Below are positions 5,764-32,102 of a stretch of DNA of 64,000 nucleotides, piece after piece. Position 1 is the first letter of the stretch, and the number at the start of each line of letters is the position of its first letter. The stretch lies in the IMG/VR virus record IMGVR_UViG_3300027759_000084, positions 1 through 64,000 of that record; one strand, 5' to 3'. The stretch comes from a virus. A program made the translations under genes and the position numbers. The notes below the pieces were generated by a model. That model saw only the letters and a list, made by a program, of their open reading frames with translations, had not been told where the DNA came from and ran no database searches.

Positions 5764-6690
5764 TTATACGGAGTGGGGCATTTTATCCCTTTTCTCTCTA
5801 TTTTCCCACCACCACATTGGTTGCAAATTGGAAAAATGAGCAAGTCTTATCACATCCTCTTCCGTTTTTGCGGAAGAAATTGGAATGATATGATCAATCT
5901 CAACCATTGAGGTTCCGGTATAATTCTTCTCTTGAAATGATTCCCACGTCATTCCGTCATAAAATTGTGACTCAATATGAGCTTGGAGGGTTTCCCAATC
6001 ACAACCAAGAATAATAGAAGTTTTGCAGTTCTTCTTAAATCCAAAACGAGAAATAGCATATAACGTTAATCGGCGCACCTTGCTGATCAGTGCATATTTT
6101 GGATCAGAAGCATATCTTGACCTCACCCATTCCCTTAAATTCTTCCGGCTTCGATCTTTGTTCGTTTCATAATACGCTCTCAAGTGCTCCTTGTTCCTCT
6201 CCCTCCAATCACGAGTCATCTGAAGGCGCTTCTCCCTATGTTTCTCCCTGCTGGCTCGATGAGACGCCTTAAATTTTTCAGGATTCTCCTCCTGCCATTT
6301 CTTCGTTCTCAATCTCTCAGCCTCCACATTCTCTTTGGCATACTTCTTCCTAGCCTGATCCTGCTTATCACAACGGCGCTGAAACTCGTCAGCAGTAACC
6401 CAAACCTCATTGCCGACATTGGAATACGAGAAAAAGATCATTCCATCATCGCGCACATCCCCACGTTTCCGAGGATTCTCCGGTTTAACAGCTTTTGCCA
6501 ACTTGCGTTTTCTGTAATCGTCATTGCGACGATCTGAATCTGCCTGCCGCTTCTTGGCAGTTTCCATGGGTAGCCATATTTCACGGCCATCTCCCCTCAT
6601 TCCCCAGAATACCTTACCATCTTCGCGGGTGTCCCAACGCTTCTTCTTGACCTTATCGGCCCCATCAGTGATAATAATTTCATTCTGCAT
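5764..6690 (-). CDS. HNH endonuclease with duplicated N-terminal motif
   Basis: A 308-aa protein. The C-terminal HNH domain (residues about 228-300) has the segment ESQFYDGMTWESF, the metal-binding core VEIDHIIP and a closing NLQPMWWWENREKRDKM. The N-terminus carries a 25-residue motif twice (about 17-41 and 75-99), seen as KRWDTREDGKVFWGMRGDGR and KRGDVRDDGMIFFSYSNVGN, which looks like a small DNA-contact repeat. The middle is a very basic helix. It sits between the capsid and scaffold genes, a classic site for free-standing homing endonucleases. Its HNH domain resembles that of the four-zinc-ribbon protein at 21854-23146. Confidence 0.88.
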   Translation of the reverse strand: MQNEIIITDGADKVKKKRWDTREDGKVFWGMRGDGREIWLPMETAKKRQADSDRRNDDYRKRKLAKAVKPENPRKRGDVRDDGMIFFSYSNVGNEVWVTADEFQRRCDKQDQARKKYAKENVEAERLRTKKWQEENPEKFKASHRASREKHREKRLQMTRDWRERNKEHLRAYYETNKDRSRKNLREWVRSRYASDPKYALISKVRRLTLYAISRFGFKKNCKTSIILGCDWETLQAHIESQFYDGMTWESFQEKNYTGTSMVEIDHIIPISSAKTEEDVIRLAHFSNLQPMWWWENREKRDKMPHSV

Positions 6691-6757: not shown

Positions 6758-6910
6758 AACCCAGGATCGCTCTCTTTTCAAGAGGTTCTTGACGAATCCA
6801 AATCCATCTGCGATGTTTTCTCACGCACAAGGTTTTGTTTTCATGTGTCCCTAGTGCTAGACGCCGTGGCGAGTTGGTTGCTCCCACGGCGTTGCCCATT
6901 TCAATCCTAT

Positions 6911-7210
6911 ATGACAACCCCATCCATCTACATCCGTATCGACCAACTGCCAGTCGGCTCAAACTCCCGCTTCGAGGCACAACTCGTTATTGGCGACGAC
7001 GAAACAGGCCAAGTGGCAGGCTTCAAATCTCCCGTATTTGAGTCAGAAGACGAGCATGAGCCATTCGTTGGCATGATGCAGCGAATCACGCAGGCGCTTC
7101 TTCAAGTGCGCGACTTCAAGAAGAGGGCAACTGTTGAAGACCTTCATATTCTCAACAAGCAAAGTCAGGAAGTTAAACCTGACGATACCTCGTTGATTAT
7201 TATGCCGTAA
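6911..7210 (+). CDS. Hypothetical protein, lone plus-strand gene, 99 aa
   Basis: The start is placed at the ATG at 6911 (MTTPSIYIRIDQLPVGSNSR), not the upstream in-frame ATG at 6845. A hairpin (ACGCCGTGG with CCACGGCGT, about 6861-6890) would lie inside a gene starting at 6845 but falls in the leader of the shorter one. It is a mixed alpha/beta protein with no recognised domain. It runs against the flanking virion genes and ends 3 bases from the scaffold stop, so it is convergent with it. It may be an independently expressed accessory gene inserted among late genes. Confidence 0.65.
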   Translation: MTTPSIYIRIDQLPVGSNSRFEAQLVIGDDETGQVAGFKSPVFESEDEHEPFVGMMQRITQALLQVRDFKKRATVEDLHILNKQSQEVKPDDTSLIIMP

Positions 7211-7213
7211 GCA

Positions 7214-8374
7214 TCACCCTTGCCGCTGGTGCGCCTGGAATCGAGCCATAATCGAATCCACGTCGTAGCCAGTAGGCAGGTTATCATTCGTGCTCACAGG
7301 CGTAGAAGTGCTAGAAGGACGAGGTGAAGCCGCAATGCGCGACTTCAGCGAAGTCTCAAGCTCAGAAATCTTGGCATTCCGTTCGTCAAGCTGACGCAAC
7401 AAATGTGGAAGAATCACGCTTGCACGCGCTGCTACAGCCATGCTAGCAGGGTCTTTTCTGATCTCAGCCCTTGAGACTGCTTCCATAAGCTCCTTGTTAT
7501 CTTTGAGAAAAGGAATTTTCTCTTGGAGCAGCTTATTTGCAGCTTCGGTGGCAGACGAAAATTGCTTGTCTTCATCCTCTTTGGCTCTGCGAGATTTCTC
7601 TTGCTCCATGAATGAAAGCTCCTGCTTAGCCCTGTCAGCATTCTCAAGCATGTCGGACGACTTCCTGAGAAGCGACTGAGTATTGCGGGCATGCTCCATG
7701 AGTTCAGCGGCATCTGTTGGGTGCCAGCCTTCAGTCACTTCGCGCAGTTTTTTACGCTGCTCGATAGGATCATTAATCTCCAAAACGCCTTGAAGCGTCT
7801 TTGCATCAACGTCATTTGCTCCTGCCAGAACTTCGATTGCCTGACCAATAGCGGCAGCAGGTTCGAGGATGGACTCATAGTAGGCGGTGGAGTTCTGAAC
7901 ATCATGGATAGAGCGAAACTGCTCATGCTCACCAAGTTTCGACTCCATCTCGGAAATACGCCTCTCGTACGCGGAAATATCCTTACCTTCAAACTCAGCA
8001 ATCTTCTTCCGCATCTCTTCGATTTCGATCATCTTCTCCTGAACAGTCTTGTCCTTTTCAGGAAGCGTGTTCTTCAAGCTGTCGCGTTCTTCACGAAGCT
8101 GTTTCAACTCAGCCTTCATGTCCTTCCATGTGGAAATGGCTTCAGGAGTAGCTTTAGATCCCTTTGGAAGATCGTTTTCAGTGACTTCCTCAATCTTTTC
8201 CCCAGGCTCATCACGCTTCACATCATCCTTGGATGGCTCTGGATCAGTGGGTGCAACTTTATCCTCAACCTTGGCTTCGTTCTCTGTAGGAAGGAACGAT
8301 TGGGCGCGATCCCACATGGCTTGAGCTTCTGCGGTTGCGTCGTATTCTGGTGGCTGTGTGTTTTCGGTGTCCAT
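7214..8374 (-). CDS. Scaffolding-like coiled-coil protein, 386 aa
   Basis: A highly charged, mostly helical protein. An acidic, Pro/Glu-rich N-terminus (1-75) is followed by long coiled-coil stretches at about 85-155 and 215-345, and a Ser/Pro-rich linker before a basic, Gln-rich tail. This profile and its location between portal and capsid genes match phage head scaffolding proteins, which line the procapsid and leave before DNA packaging. There is no visible protease domain. The ATG lies 5 bases from the upstream gene's stop, so it is in the same operon as the portal. Confidence 0.75.
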   Translation of the reverse strand: MDTENTQPPEYDATAEAQAMWDRAQSFLPTENEAKVEDKVAPTDPEPSKDDVKRDEPGEKIEEVTENDLPKGSKATPEAISTWKDMKAELKQLREERDSLKNTLPEKDKTVQEKMIEIEEMRKKIAEFEGKDISAYERRISEMESKLGEHEQFRSIHDVQNSTAYYESILEPAAAIGQAIEVLAGANDVDAKTLQGVLEINDPIEQRKKLREVTEGWHPTDAAELMEHARNTQSLLRKSSDMLENADRAKQELSFMEQEKSRRAKEDEDKQFSSATEAANKLLQEKIPFLKDNKELMEAVSRAEIRKDPASMAVAARASVILPHLLRQLDERNAKISELETSLKSRIAASPRPSSTSTPVSTNDNLPTGYDVDSIMARFQAHQRQG

Positions 8375-12103: not shown

Positions 12104-13783
12104 TCAAAGCAAATCTCCAATATTTCCACTCGTTAGAGTAAAGATTGGATGATCTGTGTAGCTATTCTCACGAAGGGCATCCATTGCAGCCGCCATGTTT
12201 GACATGCGTAGATTGCCACTAAAAGAGTTTGGCGCGGCTTTTACGGTAGCTTTAACAACCTCTGCTTCGGCTTGCTCATGGCTGATTCCAAGTAGCTTGG
12301 ATACCTTGGATGCCACCTTTCTCACGGTGCCTTCTTGAATCCGAATGCCGCCATAGTCATAGATCCAACCGTATCCACGCCCAACTTTTGGCACAATCGT
12401 TGTGTCGAAGTTTGACCAATGAATGGCGTTAGACTTGAGGCTTTTTGCTGGAACATGAGCAACGGCTGGAAGAGTCACCGTTCCATCAAAGACATACTGA
12501 GCATTATACGCTTTTGGATAAATGCAGTCTGGAATGATGAGTGATCCCTCAAGGATTCGAGGGTGCTTCAATCCTTCGGCAATTGTCATGCACGAGCTTT
12601 GGTTGCCGATGAACAACTCACTTCCGGCAATCGCCTGTGCAACTTCCAGCATATCGTGTGTGACGATGTAGCGAACCTTGCCAAAATGATACTCAAAATC
12701 AGCGTGCTCCTGCGGCAATCCAATGAAGCACAAAAGATTTCCATAGTGTTCAACTACCTCTCTCCATGGAAAATGTGGATTATTGTAGCGAGGACTGCGA
12801 TTGATGACTATGAGGCCGTTGAACTTCTTGTTTTGCTCAACTGTCAGCCACGGCTTGCTCATGTCTGGTAGCGTGTCGATGAAGTGCGTGTCAAGAGCAT
12901 GCTGAGCATGGCAGGTAGCAAGATTACGTCTTCTGTCGTGCCAACTTGGCCTGAAGCCTTCTGATGCCCAAGCAATAGGCTCTCGCTTCCAGATTTTTAC
13001 AGAGTTGATGTATGGTTGGGATTCGATCAGTGGCCTAATTAGCGGCAGTCTTGCAACAAAGCCCTTGGTTGATCCATTGTCGCGGGCGTAATAATCGAAC
13101 GTGCCGCCGTGGTGATTGAGTGTTGCTAAGCTTACCACCGCATCACCCAAATCACCAACTCCAGAGACTCCAATAATCTCATTACGCTTCATGGATGGCA
13201 TGATGTGGTCGATTAAACTCTGAGCGTTATCTTTGTGGAAGATCACAGAATCATCTCGCAGAATATGCAAATCACGCGGGAACTCGTGGAGTGTGACATC
13301 ACCCCTAGAATCATAGAAGCCATACGAGTGTTGAATCAAATCAGTGAGTCCAATTTGATCTGGAAAATTGGTAGAAATCCACTCATCAAATCCGCCCGTA
13401 GTATATCCAACTGGAGCTTGCTCGTATGCGTCCGGTCCTTGTACACCAATGCCCGTAAAATTATCAAATGGTGGATTGCGAGTCTTTGGATAAAGATACA
13501 GCTTGCCCTGCTTCACATACTCATCAGTGATCGCTTTGAGCCATCCCTTCTTGATTGGAATAGAGTCGCACTCAATCCACATAAAAGCCTTACCACGCAT
13601 CGCTTTGGCGCACTGCTTAAACGCTAAGTTTGCCACCTCTGGATAACGCATACCAGGAGGGTCTTGAAACGACATCGTAATTACCTCGGTGCCATCTAGT
13701 TCCTTCAAATATTGTACCAAGCGTTCAGCCTGACGTTTTTCGTGAGGCGCTATGTTGAGGACTACTGGTAGCAGTGATGTCAT
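12104..13783 (-). CDS. Two-domain glycosyltransferase (GT-A-like plus GT9-like)
   Basis: The start is placed at 13783, where ATGA overlaps the stop of the upstream methyltransferase; an in-frame ATG seven codons earlier is possible. The N-terminal domain has WIECDSIPIKKGWL at about 69-82, matching the neighbouring gene. The C-terminal half (about 205-470) looks like a GT-B enzyme of the ADP-heptose transferase type (GT9). It has an early GDLGDAVVSLATL loop, a central strand LIVINRSPRY and a late FIGNQSSCMTIAEGLKHPRI motif in the donor-binding position. It could build a short glycan with the adjacent gene. The acceptor is unknown. Confidence 0.7.
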   Translation of the reverse strand: MTSLLPVVLNIAPHEKRQAERLVQYLKELDGTEVITMSFQDPPGMRYPEVANLAFKQCAKAMRGKAFMWIECDSIPIKKGWLKAITDEYVKQGKLYLYPKTRNPPFDNFTGIGVQGPDAYEQAPVGYTTGGFDEWISTNFPDQIGLTDLIQHSYGFYDSRGDVTLHEFPRDLHILRDDSVIFHKDNAQSLIDHIMPSMKRNEIIGVSGVGDLGDAVVSLATLNHHGGTFDYYARDNGSTKGFVARLPLIRPLIESQPYINSVKIWKREPIAWASEGFRPSWHDRRRNLATCHAQHALDTHFIDTLPDMSKPWLTVEQNKKFNGLIVINRSPRYNNPHFPWREVVEHYGNLLCFIGLPQEHADFEYHFGKVRYIVTHDMLEVAQAIAGSELFIGNQSSCMTIAEGLKHPRILEGSLIIPDCIYPKAYNAQYVFDGTVTLPAVAHVPAKSLKSNAIHWSNFDTTIVPKVGRGYGWIYDYGGIRIQEGTVRKVASKVSKLLGISHEQAEAEVVKATVKAAPNSFSGNLRMSNMAAAMDALRENSYTDHPIFTLTSGNIGDLL

Positions 13784-15005: not shown

Positions 15006-15377
15006 TTAACTTTTTGTTTCAATTTCATCAAAAACGGCATTAATGGTTACGATTCCAATGCTTTTATTTGGATTGGTTGCCTTATTGTAAATATTATTCC
15101 ATTTTGCCTGAGTCGATATGATGCGTGATAATCCGTTCTTTTTTGCCTCAAGTGCAATAGCTCGACACATATCAATAACTAAATTCTCAAGGTTTTTTAA
15201 AATATGATCTCCGCAACATGTATCTTTTATGCAAAAAAAAGAAGAGATACTTGATGTAATTCCATCTGAATTATGAAGTGATGTGCCAACTGGAATACCA
15301 ATACACTCAGTCAAATTGTATTGACCAAGGAGTTCTATAATTTGCTTCTCTACTTCAGTTAAATTTTCGGATTCCAT
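15006..15377 (-). CDS. AT-rich hypothetical gene between 29-bp repeats, 123 aa
   Basis: A 123-aa protein with an acidic N-terminus (MESENLTEVEKQIIELLGQY) and a Cys-containing centre (FCIKDTCCGDHIL). No family is recognised. The gene looks clearly more AT-rich than its neighbours. Its start codon lies in one copy of a 29-bp direct repeat and its stop is followed at once by the other copy. Removing one repeat plus this gene would join the upstream stop to the downstream ATG seamlessly. It therefore looks like a recently gained cassette ('moron'). Confidence 0.75.
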   Translation of the reverse strand: MESENLTEVEKQIIELLGQYNLTECIGIPVGTSLHNSDGITSSISSFFCIKDTCCGDHILKNLENLVIDMCRAIALEAKKNGLSRIISTQAKWNNIYNKATNPNKSIGIVTINAVFDEIETKS

Positions 15378-15615: not shown

Positions 15616-15699
15616 ATGGTTACAAAGTTTAGATCGTTTCTTGGATGGAGTCAACTGTGCCGTCGTTGGTTGAGCCAATTAAGAGGTGTTTTATGGAAA

Positions 15700-16284
15700 T
15701 TAAAGAATGGATAGTTTGATATTCGGGTTGGCAAGTTTAGCCACTTCAAAAAAGCTCTTTTCAATTCTGGTTTCAACATCATTCCAGATTTCGTGCAGGC
15801 TCTTTTCTTCTTCTGTGATTGGCTTTCCCCTTGGAACAAAACATACGCGATGGATTCGTAATACATGCATTGAATCATCGACTGCATCGACAATCTGTCT
15901 CGTGCTGGCAATCTGCCGTAAGCCGATTTTAGGAATCGAATACCTACGCTCGTGCCAGTCCTGCATATTTTCCCCCTTGGTTCCGATAATCAGATGCTTT
16001 GGGTTGGTGCAAATTTTGTTGTCGCAGCGATGACGAACGACCATTCCATCCTCAATTTCTCCATGATGAAGGAAATACGACACTCGATGACCTGCGTACC
16101 ATGCACCCTTTACCGGAATTGCGGCATAACCTCCGGTTCCAGATGGCCCGTGCCATTCCCAGCATTGTGTAAGCCCTTTGTAATGCGGGTTGGACTGATC
16201 TGGCGCAAGCCCTCCTTCCTTATTAACAAAGGCGTCAAACAATTGACGAAGTATTTTCGCGTGTGACAAATTAACGAGTTTCAT
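15700..16284 (-). CDS. HNH endonuclease (zinc-type), 194 aa
   Basis: The start is chosen at the ATG at 16284, because a longer form would overlap the HTH gene. Residues about 40-115 form an HNH_3-type domain: CWEWHGPSGTGGYAAI, GHRVSYFLHHGEI, then VVRHRCDNKICTNPKHLIIG with the HRCD and C-x4-NPxHL zinc/metal ligands. The C-terminal 80 residues lack the HTH seen in many relatives and are partly helical. It is likely a free-standing homing endonuclease. No intron or split gene is visible next to it. Confidence 0.85.
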   Translation of the reverse strand: MKLVNLSHAKILRQLFDAFVNKEGGLAPDQSNPHYKGLTQCWEWHGPSGTGGYAAIPVKGAWYAGHRVSYFLHHGEIEDGMVVRHRCDNKICTNPKHLIIGTKGENMQDWHERRYSIPKIGLRQIASTRQIVDAVDDSMHVLRIHRVCFVPRGKPITEEEKSLHEIWNDVETRIEKSFFEVAKLANPNIKLSIL

Positions 16285-16295
16285 ACAGATTTCAG

Positions 16296-16580
16296 TTATT
16301 GAAGTTGAAACAGCGGTCCAAGTAAACGCTGAACGGTTCTGGCGCTCCAATGGCGCTTCTTGCGCTCAAGGAGTGAGATGTACATGGCGCTCACACCCAT
16401 AATGTTGGCAATCTGCTCTTGGGATAAGTCGTAATGCTTACGGAATAGTTTGAGAGCATCCGTCAAATCTCCATTGGCTTCAACCTGCTTAACCTCCAAG
16501 TCCGCCATTCTTTTCATAGCGCATTCGAGGCTAGATTTTACTTCGGTCCATTCGGACTCTTTTTCAGGGCAGTTATTCAT
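16296..16580 (-). CDS. Cro/C1-type (XRE) transcriptional regulator
   Basis: A 94-aa protein. A Cro/C1 helix-turn-helix spans about 45-80 (YDLSQEQIANIMGVSAMYIS followed by LLERKKR). The N-terminal 40 residues are an acidic helix. It starts within the last codons of the gene above it, so it is in one operon with it, downstream of the palindromic sites at 17439-17507, which are candidate targets for this or a related regulator. Confidence 0.8.
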   Translation of the reverse strand: MNNCPEKESEWTEVKSSLECAMKRMADLEVKQVEANGDLTDALKLFRKHYDLSQEQIANIMGVSAMYISLLERKKRHWSARTVQRLLGPLFQLQ

Positions 16581-17382
16581 TGGTGTCTTCTTTTTTATTT
16601 GGTAGCAAGTTACTTTTCCACATTGGCGGCGGGTTGAGGTAGGCGCTTGTACCCAAAATTAAGTTGTTTAACTGAAGCTCAATTGATTCTTGCGTGAACC
16701 TTGAGACAAATTTAACCACCATCTCAATCATCAGTTCCGCTTGCTCCTTTGTCCAAGTCCATTGGACAGACTCGGTTCGGAGTCGGCATCGAAGCGCCAT
16801 ATTCTTCCTCCAATTGAAAACTTTGGTTAAAGACTCAAAAACACAAACTGGCAGCGTTTCGGGTATTTTCACTGTTTCTGCTACTGCCAATTCTTCCAGC
16901 ATGCGAATCTTCCACAACTCTTCGTGGTGTCCATGATCCTCATGTTTGATTCGTGGAGCATGACGAAAAATGCACTTTCTGGAAAAGAATGCCAAAAATG
17001 GCTCTGGATCATCAGCTTTTTCAGGTTGGCCCCACCATTTTGCAATAGCCTGCCAAATTGGCTTATGAGGTGGCGCTTTCCTACTCAGCGTGCCGCAGCA
17101 CTGATTTTTCATGAATTGACTGAGCATCAACTGACACCCGCCGTCCATCCAAACAACATGATCAGGCCCCATAGCTTTTACGTCCAAACGGTTAAATTCT
17201 ACACCGTCGCCAAGAACCTCGTGAATCTTATCCAAATCCCAATCCACAACACCAGCCTTGTCAGCCAAGCATTCTAGCGCCATCAAGCATGCTCGGTGCT
17301 TAAAAGACAATGAGGCGAAATCAATATCACGCCAGCGGTTGGCGTTCACTCGAATCTCTCTGGATGATTTAGCTTTTCTCAC
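16573..17382 (-). CDS. Hypothetical protein with replication-protein-like N-terminus
   Basis: A 269-aa protein. Residues about 20-110 resemble the winged-helix N-terminus of phage replication or DNA-binding proteins: two helices (FKHRACLMALECLADKAGVV), a helix-turn segment and a beta hairpin (VVWMDGGCQLMLSQFMKNQC). The rest is helical and Cys/His-containing without a clear metal site. It is the first gene behind the operator-like region at 17404-17507, so it may be controlled there. The function is not established. Confidence 0.6.
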   Translation of the reverse strand: MRKAKSSREIRVNANRWRDIDFASLSFKHRACLMALECLADKAGVVDWDLDKIHEVLGDGVEFNRLDVKAMGPDHVVWMDGGCQLMLSQFMKNQCCGTLSRKAPPHKPIWQAIAKWWGQPEKADDPEPFLAFFSRKCIFRHAPRIKHEDHGHHEELWKIRMLEELAVAETVKIPETLPVCVFESLTKVFNWRKNMALRCRLRTESVQWTWTKEQAELMIEMVVKFVSRFTQESIELQLNNLILGTSAYLNPPPMWKSNLLPNKKEDTNE

Positions 17383-17403
17383 AATTCATCAATATAATCA
17401 AAC

Positions 17404-17507
17404 TTGTTTGGAATGCAAACAAATTAAACAGATTTGTTGGTACTAACCTAGTTCCTTAACCTCTTTCTTGTTCATGTGTGTAAAGGTTATGGTACTAACC
17501 TAGTACC
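17404..17507. promoter_or_regulatory. Operator-like palindrome cluster
   Basis: Three inverted repeats lie between two leftward genes. TTGTTTG-GAATG-CAAACAA is perfect (17404-17422). GGTACTA-ACC-TAGTACC is perfect (17491-17507). A second copy of the latter with one mismatch is at 17439-17455. The two related sites are 52 bp apart (centre to centre), about five helical turns, as expected for cooperative repressor binding. They precede the gene starting at 17382, in an operon that includes an XRE regulator. Confidence 0.65.
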
Positions 17508-17510
17508 AAC

Positions 17511-17780
17511 TCACCCAACCAGCCTCTCGTGCTCGTTGTTGATGGCATCCTTCTCCTCCCAAAGTTTGGCATTAGGACCACACATATCAAACCCCCTCAT
17601 TGTGCCGCACATCCTTGTTCGCTCAAAAATATCAATTTTTTCCCCTGTTACGAGATCAATACTGCTAGCTGCGCCTTTGCTAGCTATAGCATCTTGATGG
17701 GTGCACGCATATGCAGTTCCATGCTCAAAAGAACGCGACACACACCACCGACAATCAACACAGAATTTAGGCGTATCCAT
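17511..17780 (-). CDS. Cys-rich zinc-binding-like protein, 89 aa
   Basis: The start is placed at the ATG at 17780 (MDTPKFCVDCRWCVSRSFEH), because the upstream in-frame sequence is antisense-like and overlaps another gene. It has a CVDCRWC cluster, a later YACTHQD and a closing MCGTMRGFDMCGPNAKLW, giving enough Cys/His for one or two zinc sites. Similar short Cys-rich proteins are common in phages, with unknown roles. It ends just before the operator cluster. Confidence 0.7.
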   Translation of the reverse strand: MDTPKFCVDCRWCVSRSFEHGTAYACTHQDAIASKGAASSIDLVTGEKIDIFERTRMCGTMRGFDMCGPNAKLWEEKDAINNEHERLVG

Positions 17781-18882: not shown

Positions 18883-19103
18883 TACTTGGATTGTTTCTTG
18901 GAGCCAATCTTCCTTCCCTTTGGCAAGCAGCCACAGGACTGCACACTACCAGAGGTGAGATTTTGATAATATACCTCGGTCTTGTTTCCGCACTCGCACT
19001 GGCACAGCCAGCGGCTATTACCATGGGTGTTGCGAGATACGAGTTCGACAACAATCAAGCTGCCGAAGGTTTCGTTGATGAGTGATTTTGGTGAGCGTCC
19101 CAT
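18882..19103 (-). CDS. CxCG/SCGC zinc-ribbon protein, 73 aa
   Basis: A member of a zinc-ribbon family present several times here. After a G-x-L strand, SRNTHGNSRWLCQCECGNKT leads to a second Cys pair in GSVQSCGCLPKGRK, giving a CxC-x(n)-CGC four-Cys site. The closest paralogue is the 75-aa protein at 21570-21797, sharing SRNxHGNSRWLCxCxCG. Relatives are often the N-terminal part of AP2/HNH endonucleases; here it stands alone and is probably DNA-binding. It is coupled to both neighbours by TAATG overlaps. Confidence 0.8.
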   Translation of the reverse strand: MGRSPKSLINETFGSLIVVELVSRNTHGNSRWLCQCECGNKTEVYYQNLTSGSVQSCGCLPKGRKIGSKKQSK

Positions 19104-19348
19104 TAGAGTGTTAGGTTTGGATGATTGCTATCTGGCTCAATGAGGAACTCGCACTCGAAAGCGATGATAGCAGGCGGATGGATAAACGATATTAGCATCA
19201 TGTCTCCACGTGGAGCGGTGCGGCGTAAACACGTCTCACAGCCTTCGCGCCAGTCCCAACTGCCGTTTTCATTGAAGCCTACGCCATCGCAACGGGCTAC
19301 ATCATTAGGAAGCCGAATCAAGTCGCTGTTGGTCTTCATAGGTTTCAT
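19103..19348 (-). CDS. Conserved small phage protein, 81 aa
   Basis: It contains RLPNDVARCDGVGFNENGSW followed by WREGCETCLRRTAPR and PPAIIAFECEFLIE. This pattern with three conserved Cys recurs in short proteins of many phages and prophages, without known function. The Cys spacing could bind a metal. It is coupled by TAATG to the zinc-ribbon gene downstream. Confidence 0.75.
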   Translation of the reverse strand: MKPMKTNSDLIRLPNDVARCDGVGFNENGSWDWREGCETCLRRTAPRGDMMLISFIHPPAIIAFECEFLIEPDSNHPNLTL

Positions 19349-20353: not shown

Positions 20354-20419
20354 ATCGTCACCAACCATCGCACACCGATTCTGTCGATGCAACAAATACA
20401 ATAAGATATAATTGTTTAA

Positions 20420-20935
20420 TTAAGTTGTTAGCAGAGAGTAGTCGAGTTTCACTTCTCCAGTATAGCCGCGCTGGATATGAACAGCACCGAGGCTGAATCC
20501 AGTTTGAGGCCATGGTTTAGGCGGTGTTGGAACAAAGAGGATTTCCTTCATTCCGAATCCAGCCTCCAACATGTCGGACTGACGCGCCCGCATAAAAAAA
20601 GCATTCACGAGACAGAGGAAGACAACATTGCTAGATACCTCCATCGACTTTTGGAGAAATGTCCTGAGTTTTGACCAAGGCGGGTTGGTGATAGTCCAGC
20701 ATACAGGTTCTTGCCAAGATTGGTTCAAGAAGTCAGCACCAGCGTCGATCTCATACCACTCCACAAACCCGTTTGTTGCGTATGGAAGCATGGCATCGTA
20801 GAAAGCTCCCTTTCCTCGGCATGGGTCAAGCAGCATACCGCTGGGGTTAAAGTGCTTCACAATCTGCTTCGCCAGTTCAGGTGGAGTATATACCCTGTCA
20901 TTGCCGCCTTTTGGGGCCAGTGGTCGGTTGCTCAT
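20420..20935 (-). CDS. DNA adenine methyltransferase-like protein, 171 aa
   Basis: The start is at the ATG at 20935 (MSNRPLAPKGGNDRVYTPPE). A class I fold is visible: motif I-like MLLDPCRGKGAFYDAM (about 35-50), an acidic YEIDAGADF after strand 2, and motif IV TNPPWSKL (about 83-90), an NPPW variant of the (D/N)PP(Y/F/W) signature for N6-adenine or N4-cytosine methylation. There is no obvious target-recognition domain, and at 171 aa it is short. It could protect phage DNA from host restriction. Confidence 0.75.
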   Translation of the reverse strand: MSNRPLAPKGGNDRVYTPPELAKQIVKHFNPSGMLLDPCRGKGAFYDAMLPYATNGFVEWYEIDAGADFLNQSWQEPVCWTITNPPWSKLRTFLQKSMEVSSNVVFLCLVNAFFMRARQSDMLEAGFGMKEILFVPTPPKPWPQTGFSLGAVHIQRGYTGEVKLDYSLLTT

Positions 20936-20985
20936 ATTGGTAAGTGTAAGGTTTGAATTGCGCAAATACAAATACTATAAGATAT

Positions 20986-21462
20986 TTATCCTCTCAGCCA
21001 AATCGCAAGCTCATCCTTCATCGCTAGCTTGACGTAGAAATCCGTTGGCTTCTGGCCCTTGTAGGTGAGTCCTTTGACCCGGCAACGAGCGATACAGCGC
21101 CAGAGACGTTGATCGTTGAGGATGAGTTTTTTAGCTTCTGATACCACAGGCTTCTTGGAATCAGTCAGCATCGCCTCAAGCTCAGCCAAATCGCCAATAG
21201 GCTCTTCAACAGCAGTTGGGCTTTCTGGCTTCACATCCACTGCTTTACCGCGCAGTAGATCAGTTCTAAGGCATCCACAGGAAAGGGACTTGCCCGTTGT
21301 GAGAGCGGTGTAGAACACGTTCTGCTTGATGCGTCCACAATCGCACTGGCACCTCCAGGTTGAAGATCCTTTTCTACCCGTTGGAACATGGGAGAGAACC
21401 GTCCAGCGACCAAAGCGTTTGCCCGTGAGGTTTTTGAAGTTGGGATGGAATGATGAAATCAT
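20986..21462 (-). CDS. Zinc-ribbon protein with C-terminal helical extension, 158 aa
   Basis: The N-terminal 65 residues are a CxCG/SCGC zinc ribbon: GKRFGRWTVLSHVPTGRKGS, then WRCQCDCGRIKQ and SLSCGCLRTDLL. The remaining 90 residues are helical and basic (LILNDQRLWRCIARCRVKGL) with no HNH or AP2 core, so the extension differs from homing-endonuclease relatives. It is probably a DNA-binding accessory protein. An AAACGGACA element lies 24-32 bases upstream of the start. Confidence 0.75.
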   Translation of the reverse strand: MISSFHPNFKNLTGKRFGRWTVLSHVPTGRKGSSTWRCQCDCGRIKQNVFYTALTTGKSLSCGCLRTDLLRGKAVDVKPESPTAVEEPIGDLAELEAMLTDSKKPVVSEAKKLILNDQRLWRCIARCRVKGLTYKGQKPTDFYVKLAMKDELAIWLRG

Positions 21463-21569: not shown

Positions 21570-21797
21570 CTAGTTTTCAGGAGAAGATGGGGTGGCCTTT
21601 GGCTTCCTACCCCTAGCGATGCAGCCACAGGAGTTGATCTTCAGCAGCTTGAGGTTCTGATACATCACCTCAACAGATCCTCCACAATCGCATTTACATA
21701 GCCATCGGCTATTTCCGTGTTGATTACGGGAGACAATTGAGGTGACGACTAGCTTACCGTAGCGGTTTCCGAGAAGAGAAATGGGTGATCTTGGCAT
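21570..21797 (-). CDS. CxCG/SCGC zinc-ribbon protein, 75 aa
   Basis: A close paralogue of the 73-aa protein at 18882-19103: LLGNRYGKLVVTSIVSRNQH, then RWLCKCDCGGSVEV and INSCGCIARGRKP. It is a single four-Cys zinc ribbon with a basic tail, probably nucleic-acid-binding. It is divergent from the four-zinc-ribbon HNH gene. The 56-bp spacer between them carries ATATTGTAGAAG twice (about 21795 and 21830), a possible shared control element. Confidence 0.8.
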   Translation of the reverse strand: MPRSPISLLGNRYGKLVVTSIVSRNQHGNSRWLCKCDCGGSVEVMYQNLKLLKINSCGCIARGRKPKATPSSPEN

Positions 21798-21853
21798 ATT
21801 GTAGAAGTATTATTTGACTGATGTTGATAGATATTGTAGAAGATTATTAATTT

Positions 21854-23146
21854 ATGCAAGCTAATAAATCACGCGCACTGCCAGAAGAGGTTTGGAATGA
21901 AATTAAAAGCAAGCACCTTGGCGGTGTCAGGCTTCGCTCATTGGCAAGAATGTATAAAGTGTCAGAGAGCACTGTCCTATCCCGTGCATTTCGTCATAGA
22001 TGGAGCGATGAAGCTAGGATGTTCAAGAAGGTTTGCCGCGATCACCATTGTAGGTACAAAGATTGCCCTACCAACTGCGGAATCGCATCACTTTGGAGAA
22101 CCAACATAGATCAAGCCAAAAAGCGTCGAATCCAAAAGTCCATGGCACGCCACAGGAAAGCAAAAAGATTGCAACAATTGCTAAACAGGCCAGCACCAAG
22201 GGTTAAGCTGTGCGCTTTTTGCCAAAAGGAAATGACATCGCTAAAGTATAAGTTTTGTTCCAGTATTTGCCAAAATGGTCACAGGCTTGCAAAAAAGCCA
22301 CCGCCAAAGCCAAGAGAATTAAGGTTGAAGGGTGGCCCACCAAAGAAGCCGAATCCACCAAGGAAATGCCCGCGATGTGAGTGTGAGTTTACCTCCAGGC
22401 ACCCATCATCAAAAACTCGTTTCTGCTCAAGAATATGCTCTGGAGTCAGAAGTAAAAAGGCAAAGCCGCCACCAATTGAGGGCAATTGCGTTATATGCTC
22501 CGCTCATATTGTATTCCCAAAGATCAAGTTTTGTTCCAGCGTGTGCCGTAAAAAGCATGAAAAAATCATGGATAAAAAGTTGGGCAGAAAAAGAAAAAAG
22601 AAGCCAAAACCAAGGAAGATAATTACGATCAAGCCATGTGGCATCTGTGGCAATGAGTTTCAGCCAAAGTCGTTCAGGAATCTTTTTTGTTCCAACAAAT
22701 GCCATAATAAAAACGACAGAAACAAAAGAAGAATCAAAGAGCGCGGAAAGAAAAGACCACCACATCAACGCATCAAGAACCGCCTATCTGGAAGGCTTCG
22801 TGAGCTTCTTCGTCGCAAAGGACAACAAAAGAAGAATGCCATCAGTAGCTACATGGGTTGTACTCCAATGGAAATGCTACGACACGTTGAGTCTCAATTC
22901 ACCAAGGGAATGACATGGGAGACGTATGGCGTCTTTGGATGGCACTTGGATCACATTATCCCATGCGAGCGATTTGATCTCACCAACGAAGATCATTGCC
23001 GAGTGTGCTTTAATTGGCGCAATATTAGGCCACTATGGGGTGAGGATAATTGGAATAGGCAAGAGATGCTAACCCTTGACGAGGCGCTAAATATCGACCC
23101 TGAGCTTGTGAGGATGGTTAAAGATATTGGAGTGAGGCTTTGGTAG
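21854..23146 (+). CDS. HNH endonuclease with four tandem zinc ribbons, 430 aa
   Basis: Residues about 9-50 are a helix-turn-helix (LPEEVWNEIKSKHLGGVRLR onward) like that of the protein at 23467-23964. A Cys cluster (C61, C66, C71, C75) follows. Then come four C-x2-C...F-C-S-x2-C zinc ribbons, at 120-139, 172-195, 212-231 and 262-283, joined by Lys/Pro-rich linkers. Residues about 336-405 are an HNH domain (HVESQFTKGMTWETYG, then WHLDHIIPCERFD and NIRPLWGEDN). The serial ribbons could read a long DNA site. The only large plus-strand gene between two leftward blocks, it is probably a selfish endonuclease. Confidence 0.88.
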   Translation: MQANKSRALPEEVWNEIKSKHLGGVRLRSLARMYKVSESTVLSRAFRHRWSDEARMFKKVCRDHHCRYKDCPTNCGIASLWRTNIDQAKKRRIQKSMARHRKAKRLQQLLNRPAPRVKLCAFCQKEMTSLKYKFCSSICQNGHRLAKKPPPKPRELRLKGGPPKKPNPPRKCPRCECEFTSRHPSSKTRFCSRICSGVRSKKAKPPPIEGNCVICSAHIVFPKIKFCSSVCRKKHEKIMDKKLGRKRKKKPKPRKIITIKPCGICGNEFQPKSFRNLFCSNKCHNKNDRNKRRIKERGKKRPPHQRIKNRLSGRLRELLRRKGQQKKNAISSYMGCTPMEMLRHVESQFTKGMTWETYGVFGWHLDHIIPCERFDLTNEDHCRVCFNWRNIRPLWGEDNWNRQEMLTLDEALNIDPELVRMVKDIGVRLW

Positions 23147-23274
23147 AAGAATTAATACTGTGGGAGAATTGGTTAGAAACTAGAAGAATCAAGTGTGGAT
23201 ACTCCTGTGGTGGGAGTGAATTTATACGCTACGCACGGGCCGACCGCCCGGTGCCTACTGCTACCCGACCCGTG

Positions 23275-23353
23275 GCTACCGCTCTACGCTGCTGGCTACC
23301 GCTACCGCTCTACGCTGCTGCCGCTGGCTACCGCTGCCAGCTAGCGCGGTAGC
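23275..23353. repeat. GC-rich tandem/inverted repeats in 320-bp non-coding region
   Basis: Bases 23147-23466 hold no convincing gene. Within them GCTACCGCTCTACGCTGCTG occurs exactly twice (23275-23294 and 23301-23320), with further partial GCTGGCTACCGCT units to 23335. A perfect 8-bp hairpin GCTACCGC/GCGGTAGC closes the array (23327-23353). The flanking genes converge here, so a two-way transcription barrier is possible. There is no T-tract. Confidence 0.7.
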
Positions 23354-23466
23354 AACCCCATGCCTTGCTGGAATCAAAGGGAAATCAGGCCGGGAATGGC
23401 GTGGTAAAGTTATAGGTTTGAACAATCCACATATATCCAAGTTGGACATCACTGATAATCAGTGCT

Positions 23467-23964
23467 TTACACATCATGCACCTTGTCAGTCTCAATAGCA
23501 GGATCAAAATGCGGTGAAAAATCCATCGGCTGAGAACTGAGCACATTAACTTGCACGGCCTGCGCCTGATCCATGCCGCTGGCTTTAGCCACGATGTCCA
23601 TCAGTGCCTTTACATCCTGCCACGATTGCACATCCGGCGGAGCAGCATTGGCCTGCTTTAGCCCTTTTCCTGCGATTTGAAGGGCTAGAAGGCGGTTATC
23701 CTCTCCTAGTCTGGCGATATTCTCCGACACGCTAGAGGCTGCTTTCTGTGCAATTGCAGTGATTTCGGGCGGGTTCTTACATTCACTTACAGCTTGAGCT
23801 TTTGCCTTGGTTACTGCCGACCATACCTCATCCCTGAATCTGCGTTGGTGAATGGCATTCTTTTCGATTCCGAATTGCTCCGCCAGTTCATTATCTGGCA
23901 CGCCACGAATCGACGCTGCTTTGATTGCGTCCCATTCGGCTTGGCTCAATATTGCTTCAGGCAT
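23467..23964 (-). CDS. HTH protein, candidate terminase small subunit, 165 aa
   Basis: The N-terminal 50 residues (LSQAEWDAIKAASIRGVPDN, then ELAEQFGIEKNAIHQRRFRD) form a helix-turn-helix like those of phage small terminase subunits. A helical, Ala/Gln-rich oligomerisation-like middle and an acidic tail (FDPAIETDKVHDV) follow. This layout fits a small terminase, which recognises the packaging site, though the gene lies 33 kb from the large subunit. A transcriptional regulator is the alternative, since the gene is divergent from the early operon across the operator pair at 24036-24070. Confidence 0.6.
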   Translation of the reverse strand: MPEAILSQAEWDAIKAASIRGVPDNELAEQFGIEKNAIHQRRFRDEVWSAVTKAKAQAVSECKNPPEITAIAQKAASSVSENIARLGEDNRLLALQIAGKGLKQANAAPPDVQSWQDVKALMDIVAKASGMDQAQAVQVNVLSSQPMDFSPHFDPAIETDKVHDV

Positions 23965-31298: not shown

Positions 31299-31440
31299 GT
31301 TGACTCTCTTGGCAACTTGGATCAAAGTTGTGTGTCGAATACGACAAATCATTGTTGAGGCCAATGATTGCAGAAATAAATTTACCCCCTTCAAGCCACC
31401 TTTGTTCGCATTGGTGGGCCTCACTTGAAGGGGGAATTTT
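31299..31440 (+). promoter_or_regulatory. Leader with three hairpins, last one terminator-like
   Basis: CAACTT/AAGTTG forms a stem at 31313-31330 and AATCATTG/CAATGATT at 31347-31369. The third is CCCCCTTCAAG/CTTGAAGGGGG (31385-31434) with an inner CCACC/GGTGG stem, followed by AATTTT. The last resembles an intrinsic terminator placed immediately before a gene, so it may attenuate expression of the endonuclease and replication genes downstream. Confidence 0.6.
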
Positions 31441-31448
31441 ATGTCTGT

Positions 31449-32102
31449 ATGCACAACTGGTACGCAAATCTCCTCCTTGATCACCGATGGCTAGCGAAGC
31501 GCAAAGAAGCACTCCATCATGATCAATATACCTGTCAGAATTGCGGCAGGAAAAACCCAGAAGTAACGCTTTGCGTCCACCATCTTGGATACGTTACTGG
31601 TTGGATGCCGTGGGATTACCCATTGACGCTTCTTCAAACACTGTGCCTCGGTTGTCATGATGAAGTTCACGCAGGACAGAAGCCGCATTATGTCATTTGT
31701 ACCACTTGTGGAGGTCTAACGCCAGATTCAAAAGCCAACGGAAGAAATGACAAGCACGAGTGGATTTGCGAGGATTGCATACAAAAACAAGCAGTTGAAG
31801 AAATTGCCATGAAAACTGCATTTGTTTACCTTATGAAGAACACTAGAAATGGTTTTATTAAAATTGGATTTAGTAAAAATCCTAAATTTAGAGAAAAAAC
31901 TCTTCAGTCTGAGGAACCTGAAATTGAATTGCTGGCTTCTATTGAGGGCACTATCGACCTTGAGAAGGAGCTACATGCTAGATTTTCAGCCTATCGAATC
32001 AGGGGAGAATGGTTCCGATTAAGCGAGTTTGAAATAGAAGACGCTAAGCAATACGTCATTTTTCACCAGGGTAGTAGAAAGCCATCAGGAGGCAAATTAT
32101 GA
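31449..32102 (+). CDS. HNH plus GIY-YIG/T5orf172 fusion endonuclease, 217 aa
   Basis: The start is set at the ATG at 31449; an in-frame TTG at 31425 lies inside the hairpin. Residues about 13-75 are an HNH-type zinc domain: YTCQNCGRKNPEVTLCVHHL and LCLGCHDEVH. A CTTCGG...CEDC ribbon follows. Residues about 125-205 match the T5orf172 branch of GIY-YIG nucleases: FVYLMKNTRNGFIKIGFSKN, PKFREKTLQSEEPEIELL, KELHARFSAYRIRGEWFRLS. Two nuclease folds in one chain is unusual. The stop overlaps the initiator start (ATGA), so the gene is embedded in the replication operon. Confidence 0.85.
   Translation: MHNWYANLLLDHRWLAKRKEALHHDQYTCQNCGRKNPEVTLCVHHLGYVTGWMPWDYPLTLLQTLCLGCHDEVHAGQKPHYVICTTCGGLTPDSKANGRNDKHEWICEDCIQKQAVEEIAMKTAFVYLMKNTRNGFIKIGFSKNPKFREKTLQSEEPEIELLASIEGTIDLEKELHARFSAYRIRGEWFRLSEFEIEDAKQYVIFHQGSRKPSGGKL

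Follow-up and report, generated by a model that had tools for sequence, protein, structure and literature searches.

In phage T4, free-standing HEGs sit between genes, and phage homing enzymes with beads-on-a-string binding regions have been described (PMC2988022). I-TevI and I-TevIII of T4 join such a DNA-binding region to a nuclease head, and in I-TevI the region includes an HTH and a zinc finger, the latter serving as a distance ruler (PMC2988022). The T4 mob genes and the zinc-finger HNH-3 genes of ICP1 are stand-alone ORFs between conserved genes, variable in presence, whose nuclease and DNA-binding modules lie at opposite ends (PMC2988022, PMC10448857). HEGs have been found to be enriched near terminase genes (PMC10448857), two zinc fingers have been reported for ShiLan (PMC11855218), and further precedent for homing has been given (PMC12724721, PMC11855218). 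F-CphI, which has a DHHRN/Endo VII motif, is likewise a phage nuclease of the free-standing kind; its catalytic domain is C-terminal, and its gene adjoins its target gene (PMC6083498). In Odn of ICP1, a RepA-like DNA-binding domain is fused to a HEG-type nuclease that cuts satellite origins (PMC8263062). In addition, the gene of the HK97-type HNH packaging protein lies beside the terminase (PMC10448857).

Here, we describe a gene in a 64,000-nucleotide stretch of virus DNA (positions 1 to 64,000 of IMG/VR record IMGVR_UViG_3300027759_000084; hereafter the window) that probably encodes an HNH nuclease of the free-standing homing type, in which the DNA-binding arm is built like beads on a string, the cutting and the target being what we infer. 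It shares with the mob and HNH-3 genes the features named above, and differs from them in having a Cys/His cluster and a row of four to five C4 ribbons, a core of the PHROG 1035/28061 group and, in one allele, an HTH; homing, too, is presumed here. I-TevI is a GIY-YIG enzyme with one zinc finger, and both I-TevI and I-TevIII are intron-encoded, unlike the present nuclease.

Anatomy of the Nuclease Gene

The preliminary description, made from the sequence alone, had reported one ORF carrying an HTH, an extra Cys cluster, four ribbons and an HNH core, and all of these were confirmed at the coordinates and on the strand given there (Table 1). An identical ORF occurs in a second contig (IMGVR_UViG_3300009183_000244, 99.99% identical over 12.5 kb and thus essentially the same phage), so that an assembly error is unlikely. 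The HTH is predicted to form three helices (residues 11-20, 24-33 and 38-57). The extra cluster reads C61-x2-H64-x6-C71-x3-C75, and all four positions recur in a relative, L105. The idea of a modular enzyme is also borne out, the array being strongly basic, with 45 K/R against 8 D/E in residues 117-284. The gene is a stand-alone ORF flanked by conserved genes; no tRNA or Rfam family was found in the window or in L133, L132, L105, L257 and L118, and no intron or RNA partner was seen there.

Table 1. Features of the nuclease gene and its surroundings, in window coordinates
Feature	Position	Strand	Remark
CapR-type gene, 158 aa	20986..21462	-	left flank, kept in kin
CapR-type mini-gene, 75 aa	21570..21797	-	divergent from nuclease gene, 56 nt between starts
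Variable site	21571..23211	.	~65 bp instead in L100, L102, L111, L112; methylase-like genes in other kin
Intergenic region of divergent pair	21798..21853	.	12-nt direct repeat ATATTGTAGAAG at 21796 and 21831
HNH nuclease ORF, 430 aa: HTH, Cys/His cluster, four treble-clef-like ribbons	21854..23146	+	
HTH, residues 8-55	21875..22018	+	no counterpart in L105 and L257 relatives
C-x2-H-x6-C-x3-C cluster, residues 61-75	22034..22078	+	kept in L105 protein
Ribbon 1, residues 120-139	22211..22270	+	
Ribbon 2, residues 172-195	22367..22438	+	HPSS motif common to ribbon 2 of L105 protein
Ribbon 3, residues 212-231	22487..22546	+	
Ribbon 4, residues 262-283	22637..22702	+	sole ribbon clearly orthologous in all three relatives
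HNH core, residues 334-405 (H364, D366, H367, N390, N399)	22853..23068	+	
C-terminal tail	23069..23146	+	most of tail persists as scar in L104, L118
TerS-like gene, 165 aa, candidate small terminase	23467..23964	-	right flank, convergent with nuclease gene

The Serial Ribbons

The ribbons follow the pattern C-x2-C-x11-15-C-x3-C, with F-C-S at the second Cys pair. When the protein was shuffled 20,000 times, no C-x2-C...F-C-S-x2-C unit arose, and a looser six-frame scan of the window returned the four known ribbons, one low-complexity match and nothing else. The ribbons had been taken for clear internal duplications of one another: fold and Cys spacing agree with this, but pairwise identity amounts to just 8-12 of 23-26 residues. 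The closest pair at the DNA level is ribbons 1 and 3 (79% over 29 nt).

In a predicted model of the full chain (mean pLDDT 81.9, pTM 0.47), the domains are confident and the overall arrangement is not fixed. Each of the four ribbons is modelled as a short hairpin and then a helix, in agreement with the layout expected of a putative zinc module of the treble-clef or FCS type (a zinc knuckle, a hairpin and a second Cys pair where a helix begins). Mutual packing of the ribbons, named beforehand as an outcome that would speak against an extended array, is not seen in this model, because the confident domains lack a fixed arrangement; a pTM this low agrees with a beads-on-a-string chain. On the L257 relative, DUF2116 ("probable treble clef") scores 26.6 bits against a cut-off of 26.8. 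The array had been held able to read an unusually long target, in the manner of zinc-finger arrays; reading of DNA by each ribbon and a target of such length are conjectural, and the comparison holds in logic only: C2H2 fingers use two Cys and two His each, whereas the present ribbons use four Cys. Judging by its charge and by precedent, the arm would bind DNA; treble clefs are also able to bind proteins, as YacG, a weak fold match, does with gyrase.

The HNH Core

The catalytic residues of the core are intact: H364, D366, H367, N390 and N399, in the motif H-x-D-H...N...N, are invariant in 54 of 54 aligned sequences. The core is not the common HNH of Pfam; a Pfam scan of the whole protein gave no hit with E below 0.05. 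Relatives of the core were found in 98 records of a phage collection, in at least 578 IMG/VR stretches and at 69 loci in genome contigs, as well as in six plasmid records that match the core only. No close relative of the protein pair P0001/P0002, P0001 being the nuclease, was found in the genome contigs.

A PDB sequence search with the nuclease gave nothing significant. When the last ribbon and the core are modelled alone, the prediction is confident (pLDDT 88.6, pTM 0.73), and HNH/His-Me nucleases stand on top of its fold matches, with a best Z of 4.4 (rmsd 4.1 over 72 aligned positions) and a best Foldseek E of 0.03, both weak. The full model matches homeodomains on the HTH and the Cas9 HNH on the core, all weakly.

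The core group falls into PHROG 1035, named "endonuclease VII", and PHROG 28061 (45 of 46 members), whereas Pfam models pick up very little of it. The PHROG 1035 name, and the annotation of some named relatives as "endonuclease VII", would suit a DNA-junction resolvase whose ribbons attach to branched DNA or to a partner protein. Such a role is nevertheless very improbable. An alignment of Endo VII with F-CphI shows a DHDH motif with a conserved CX2-4C before it and a CX2C after it (PMC6083498), and the F-CphI motif and zinc site are missing from the present core: HLDH (H-x-D-H) stands at residues 364-367, and while a CX2C is present at 382-385, the nearest upstream Cys pair is that of ribbon 4, about 80 residues off. 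In addition, Pfam PF02945 (Endonuclease_7) matches neither the nuclease nor any of the 46 core-group members, and the gene is dispensable, as described below. Because it lacks the DHDH motif and the flanking Cys pairs, the core is not filed under Endo VII/F-CphI.

Relatives with the Same Core and Another Arm

Two relatives share the core and lack the HTH. That in L105 (IMGVR_UViG_3300027710_000149) is 409 aa long and carries five ribbons as well as the Cys/His cluster; that in L257 (IMGVR_UViG_3300044631_001108) is 306 aa long and carries four, of which the first is CxC. The L105 protein begins close to the position of Met56 in the window protein, which gives the HTH the look of a segment added at the N-terminus.

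Identity to the window protein, given for L257 and L105 in that order, is 62/72 and 50/72 in the core, 14/26 and 10/26 in the last ribbon, 10/24 and 8/24 in ribbon 3, 4/23 and 8/22 in the linker between ribbons 3 and 4, and 9/25 and 11/23 in ribbon 2, the distal alignment with L257 being uncertain. When all positions but the Cys are shuffled, the window and L257 stand out in their last ribbons, with z of about 10, and most other ribbon pairs give 5 or less; the z-scores leave the order of duplication unsettled, with the exception of the orthology of the last ribbon. Over the last 146 codons, dN between the window and L257 is 0.19 and dS, near saturation, is 1.9, and the changes are distributed 28/23/69 over the three codon positions. 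This end of the gene is, by these measures, under purifying selection. The alignments point to the core and the last ribbon being kept while the distal ribbons are barely alignable, that is, to a head that is held and an arm that is changing.

The gene order of L257 is that of the window, with a divergent CapR-type gene, the nuclease gene and a convergent TerS-like gene, and the corresponding proteins are 30% (TerS-like), 48% (566-aa protein) and 84% (RecT) identical. DNA similarity between the two spans 22784-23149 and ends at the stop codon; the flank beyond the gene pair showed none, and the shared position is read from gene order alone.

A Site with Changing Occupants

Kin were located through the TerS-like gene and the 566-aa gene, and 20 contigs (L099-L118) span the site from the CapR-type gene at 20986-21462 to the TerS-like gene. 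By tblastn across the site, the nuclease is present in two of the 20 (L105 and L099, the latter being the same phage, with 99.99% identity to the window) and absent from 16, and two (L104 and L118) retain just a scar of it. As several contigs look like near-duplicates (L107/L108/L109, L110/L115, L102/L103 and L116/L117), the independent phages and events are fewer than the contigs. Neither the nuclease nor the 75-aa CapR-type gene is found in L100, L102, L111 and L112. L104 and L118 retain the CapR-type gene, and of the nuclease gene they keep the final 22 codons, which run in frame into the stop; over the stretch that starts at 23081 and includes the stop codon, the scar matches the window gene at 64/66 nt (L104) and 61/66 nt (L118), counted from the letters. 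Since the L257 gene is far more diverged there, these genomes once had a near-identical gene and lost it by deletion.

Methylase-like genes, all labelled by eye, occupy the site in other kin. A 263-aa gene lies between the CapR-type and TerS-like genes in L101; a 359-aa gene is found on the other side of the CapR-type place in L101, L104 and L107-L109, and a 194-aa gene in L110 and L115; in L101, such genes lie at 6825-7613 and from 7928 onward. Nuclease and methylase-like genes thus swap places at this site, and the nuclease gene is best read, from this pattern of alleles, as dispensable and mobile.

Is homing needed to explain such a pattern? Presence and absence would also fit recombination at a hot spot, where the nuclease gene would be ordinary cargo like the methylase-like genes that take the same site in L101, L104, L107-L110 and L115, or its ribbons might be mere spacers or partner-binding modules. 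We regard this as unlikely: the nuclease and a divergent CapR-type neighbour recur in the same order in all three carriers (the window, L105 and L257), one of them a divergent background, and a scar of the same gene is left in two further contigs.

The TerS-Like HTH and the Candidate Packaging Neighbour

The HTH had been said to match that of the neighbouring candidate small terminase, and this likeness proved real at the family level. The HTH matches the small-terminase PHROG 509 with E = 1e-5, and in Smith-Waterman comparisons with 13 TerS-like N-termini it scores 48-65 against a shuffle mean of about 22, with 0 of 1000 shuffles equal in each of the 13 cases. Against the L257 TerS-like protein it scores 70, in a range of 48-70 against eight TerS-like HTHs; mutual scores between different types of TerS-like allele run from 41 to 113, a spread that takes in the HTH of the nuclease. 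Pairwise BLASTP of the HTH with the TerS-like protein of the window gave nothing (E 0.53). No donor of the HTH emerged, the best tblastn match in phages reaching just E 0.7 and the sole match in a scan of viral contigs being the same phage. The TerS label is itself that of a candidate, the protein encoded at 23467-23964 having no PHROG match below 0.01.

Among phages about 95% identical elsewhere, the TerS-like gene is variable at its HTH end and kept at the other. At the HTH end, 11-36 of 55-60 residues are identical in seven of nine kin and 59/60 in the other two; in the C-terminal third, 39-51 of 49-55 residues are identical in all nine. The gap between the nuclease and TerS-like genes (23212-23450) is C-rich, repeat-bearing and non-coding; it is common to 10 aligned sequences but variable, and may serve in regulation or packaging.

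The phage's own packaging site had been suggested as part of the target. This is possible but weak, because the L105 and L257 relatives lack the HTH and the gene is absent or scarred in 18 of the 20 contigs. The same findings bear on a role as a packaging accessory, in which the HNH enzyme would act with the terminase at cos or pac in the manner of HK97, guided by its TerS-like HTH. The gene does adjoin the TerS-like gene, as the HK97-type gene adjoins the terminase, its own HTH is TerS-like, and relatives of the core adjoin terminase genes in Pseudomonas phage PS-1, Aeromonas phage 4_D05 and Verrucomicrobia phage P8625. Help in packaging is nonetheless improbable, as a gene missing or scarred so often is no conserved part of a packaging module; unlike the HK97-type gene, the present one is dispensable and convergent with its TerS-like neighbour, lying on the opposite strand.

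HEG-like nucleases have been reused against competitors, as with Odn of ICP1 (PMC8263062), and the HTH resembles several TerS-like alleles, whose HTH half varies strongly. The nuclease might accordingly be a domesticated weapon that cuts rival phages or satellites and is kept for that use over its own spread. This seems rather unlikely, given the low identity of the HTH to any TerS-like protein and the occurrence, without the nuclease gene, of TerS-like proteins near-identical to that of the window (L100 and L101). Odn and the present protein are alike in combining a HEG-type nuclease with a domain resembling that of another essential DNA-binding protein (PMC8263062); the Odn domain, however, is highly similar to RepA, whereas the HTH here is only distantly TerS-like. 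A bolder version is a chimeric nuclease in which a TerS-type HTH, borrowed from a packaging protein, would steer a swappable bead arm and HNH head to the TerS-binding DNA of related phages, as in Odn, the variation of the TerS-like HTH half being the trace of escape. We give this little credence.

A Proposed Model of Homing

In the homing reading, which we favour, the enzyme would be produced in a cell where a related phage without the gene is present as well. Its basic bead arm (the ribbons, together with the HTH in this allele) would bind an extended DNA site in or near the variable site and the TerS-like region, and the HNH head would cut or nick the bound DNA. Recombination repair would then copy the nuclease gene and flanking DNA into the cut genome, and genomes with the gene or its scar would be poorer targets. 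Binding, cutting and copying are proposed on the basis of the anatomy, the presence and absence of the gene, the scar and precedent.

Among the site alleles compared, no cleavage site and no target difference between resident and empty genomes were identified. Two candidate sites were tried and rejected. Similarity between the upstream region and the 3' end of the gene, considered as a self-operator or homing site, is weak, 26 of 1000 shuffles being as good; TAGAAGAWT occurs three times in the window, always at the edges of the nuclease gene, and 13 of 100 shuffles equal this count.

Ribbon Arrays on Other HNH Enzymes

How common are such arrays? In the core group itself, 80 of at least 578 loci gave 78 ORFs with a readable motif, of which 72 have no FCS-type ribbon, four have one and two have two. 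A scan for two or more FCS-type ribbons, by a nucleotide pattern that is biased in requiring TTC for the first Phe, matched at least 120 loci. Among the matches listed, after low-complexity filtering, 35 loci have an ORF of two or more ribbons (31 ORFs with two, five with three and two with four), and an HNH-like motif was seen by eye in all seven ORFs of three or more. Pfam, run on six of these seven with L254 left out, gave an HNH-type model in five (one below cut-off) and none in one. L173, which has three ribbons before the low-complexity filter and was removed by it, has no Pfam match.

The seven ORFs (L138, L211, L142, L193, L207, L215 and L254) thus resemble the window gene in joining three to four serial C-x2-C...C-x3-C ribbons to an HNH-like motif in one ORF. 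They differ from it in HNH class (PF01844, PF13392 HNH_3, PF02945 below cut-off, or none), and in L138 and L193 the HNH precedes the ribbons. Serial ribbons on HNH enzymes thus recur among phages, with four to five at the high end. In a literature search of limited depth, which leaves absence unproven, we found no description of serial FCS/treble-clef arrays of four to five on a phage HNH nuclease, or of an arm of four to five C4 ribbons in series that changes while the head stays fixed.

Should the ribbons read DNA, these alleles would be a series made by nature in which one cutting head is combined with four or five beads and the arm changes much faster than the head. With such a series, the evolution of modular DNA reading in homing enzymes could be tested directly, and it might offer a small C4-ribbon DNA-binding array. 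If the ribbons are instead spacers or protein-binding modules, the gene would be a mobile phage nuclease of the ordinary sort, distinguished by its long arm. Near relatives provide intact, five-bead, scarred and empty alleles, and with them a ready comparison for the cycle of gain and loss of homing genes beside a packaging gene.

Other Loci in the Window and Its Kin

A third CapR-type stretch lies at 18909-19106 (-) and is about 57% identical to 21570-21797; such mini-genes recur at variable sites. A search for the term "CapR homology domain" found no literature. Other gene-sized insertions relative to most kin are found at 15006-15374, 15660-17776 and 20410-20967. In L133 (10541-11368, against 12972-13264 of the window), a 176-aa ORF labelled by eye as AP2-HNH-like replaces part of the 566-aa gene; the break in this gene is the same in L132, with no Rfam intron there. 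Further HNH-type ORFs lie at 5764-6690 (-), 15700-16350 (-) and 31425-32102 (+) and belong to the PHROG 1035, 1872 and 119 groups; counting the nuclease studied here, the window thus holds at least four HNH genes.
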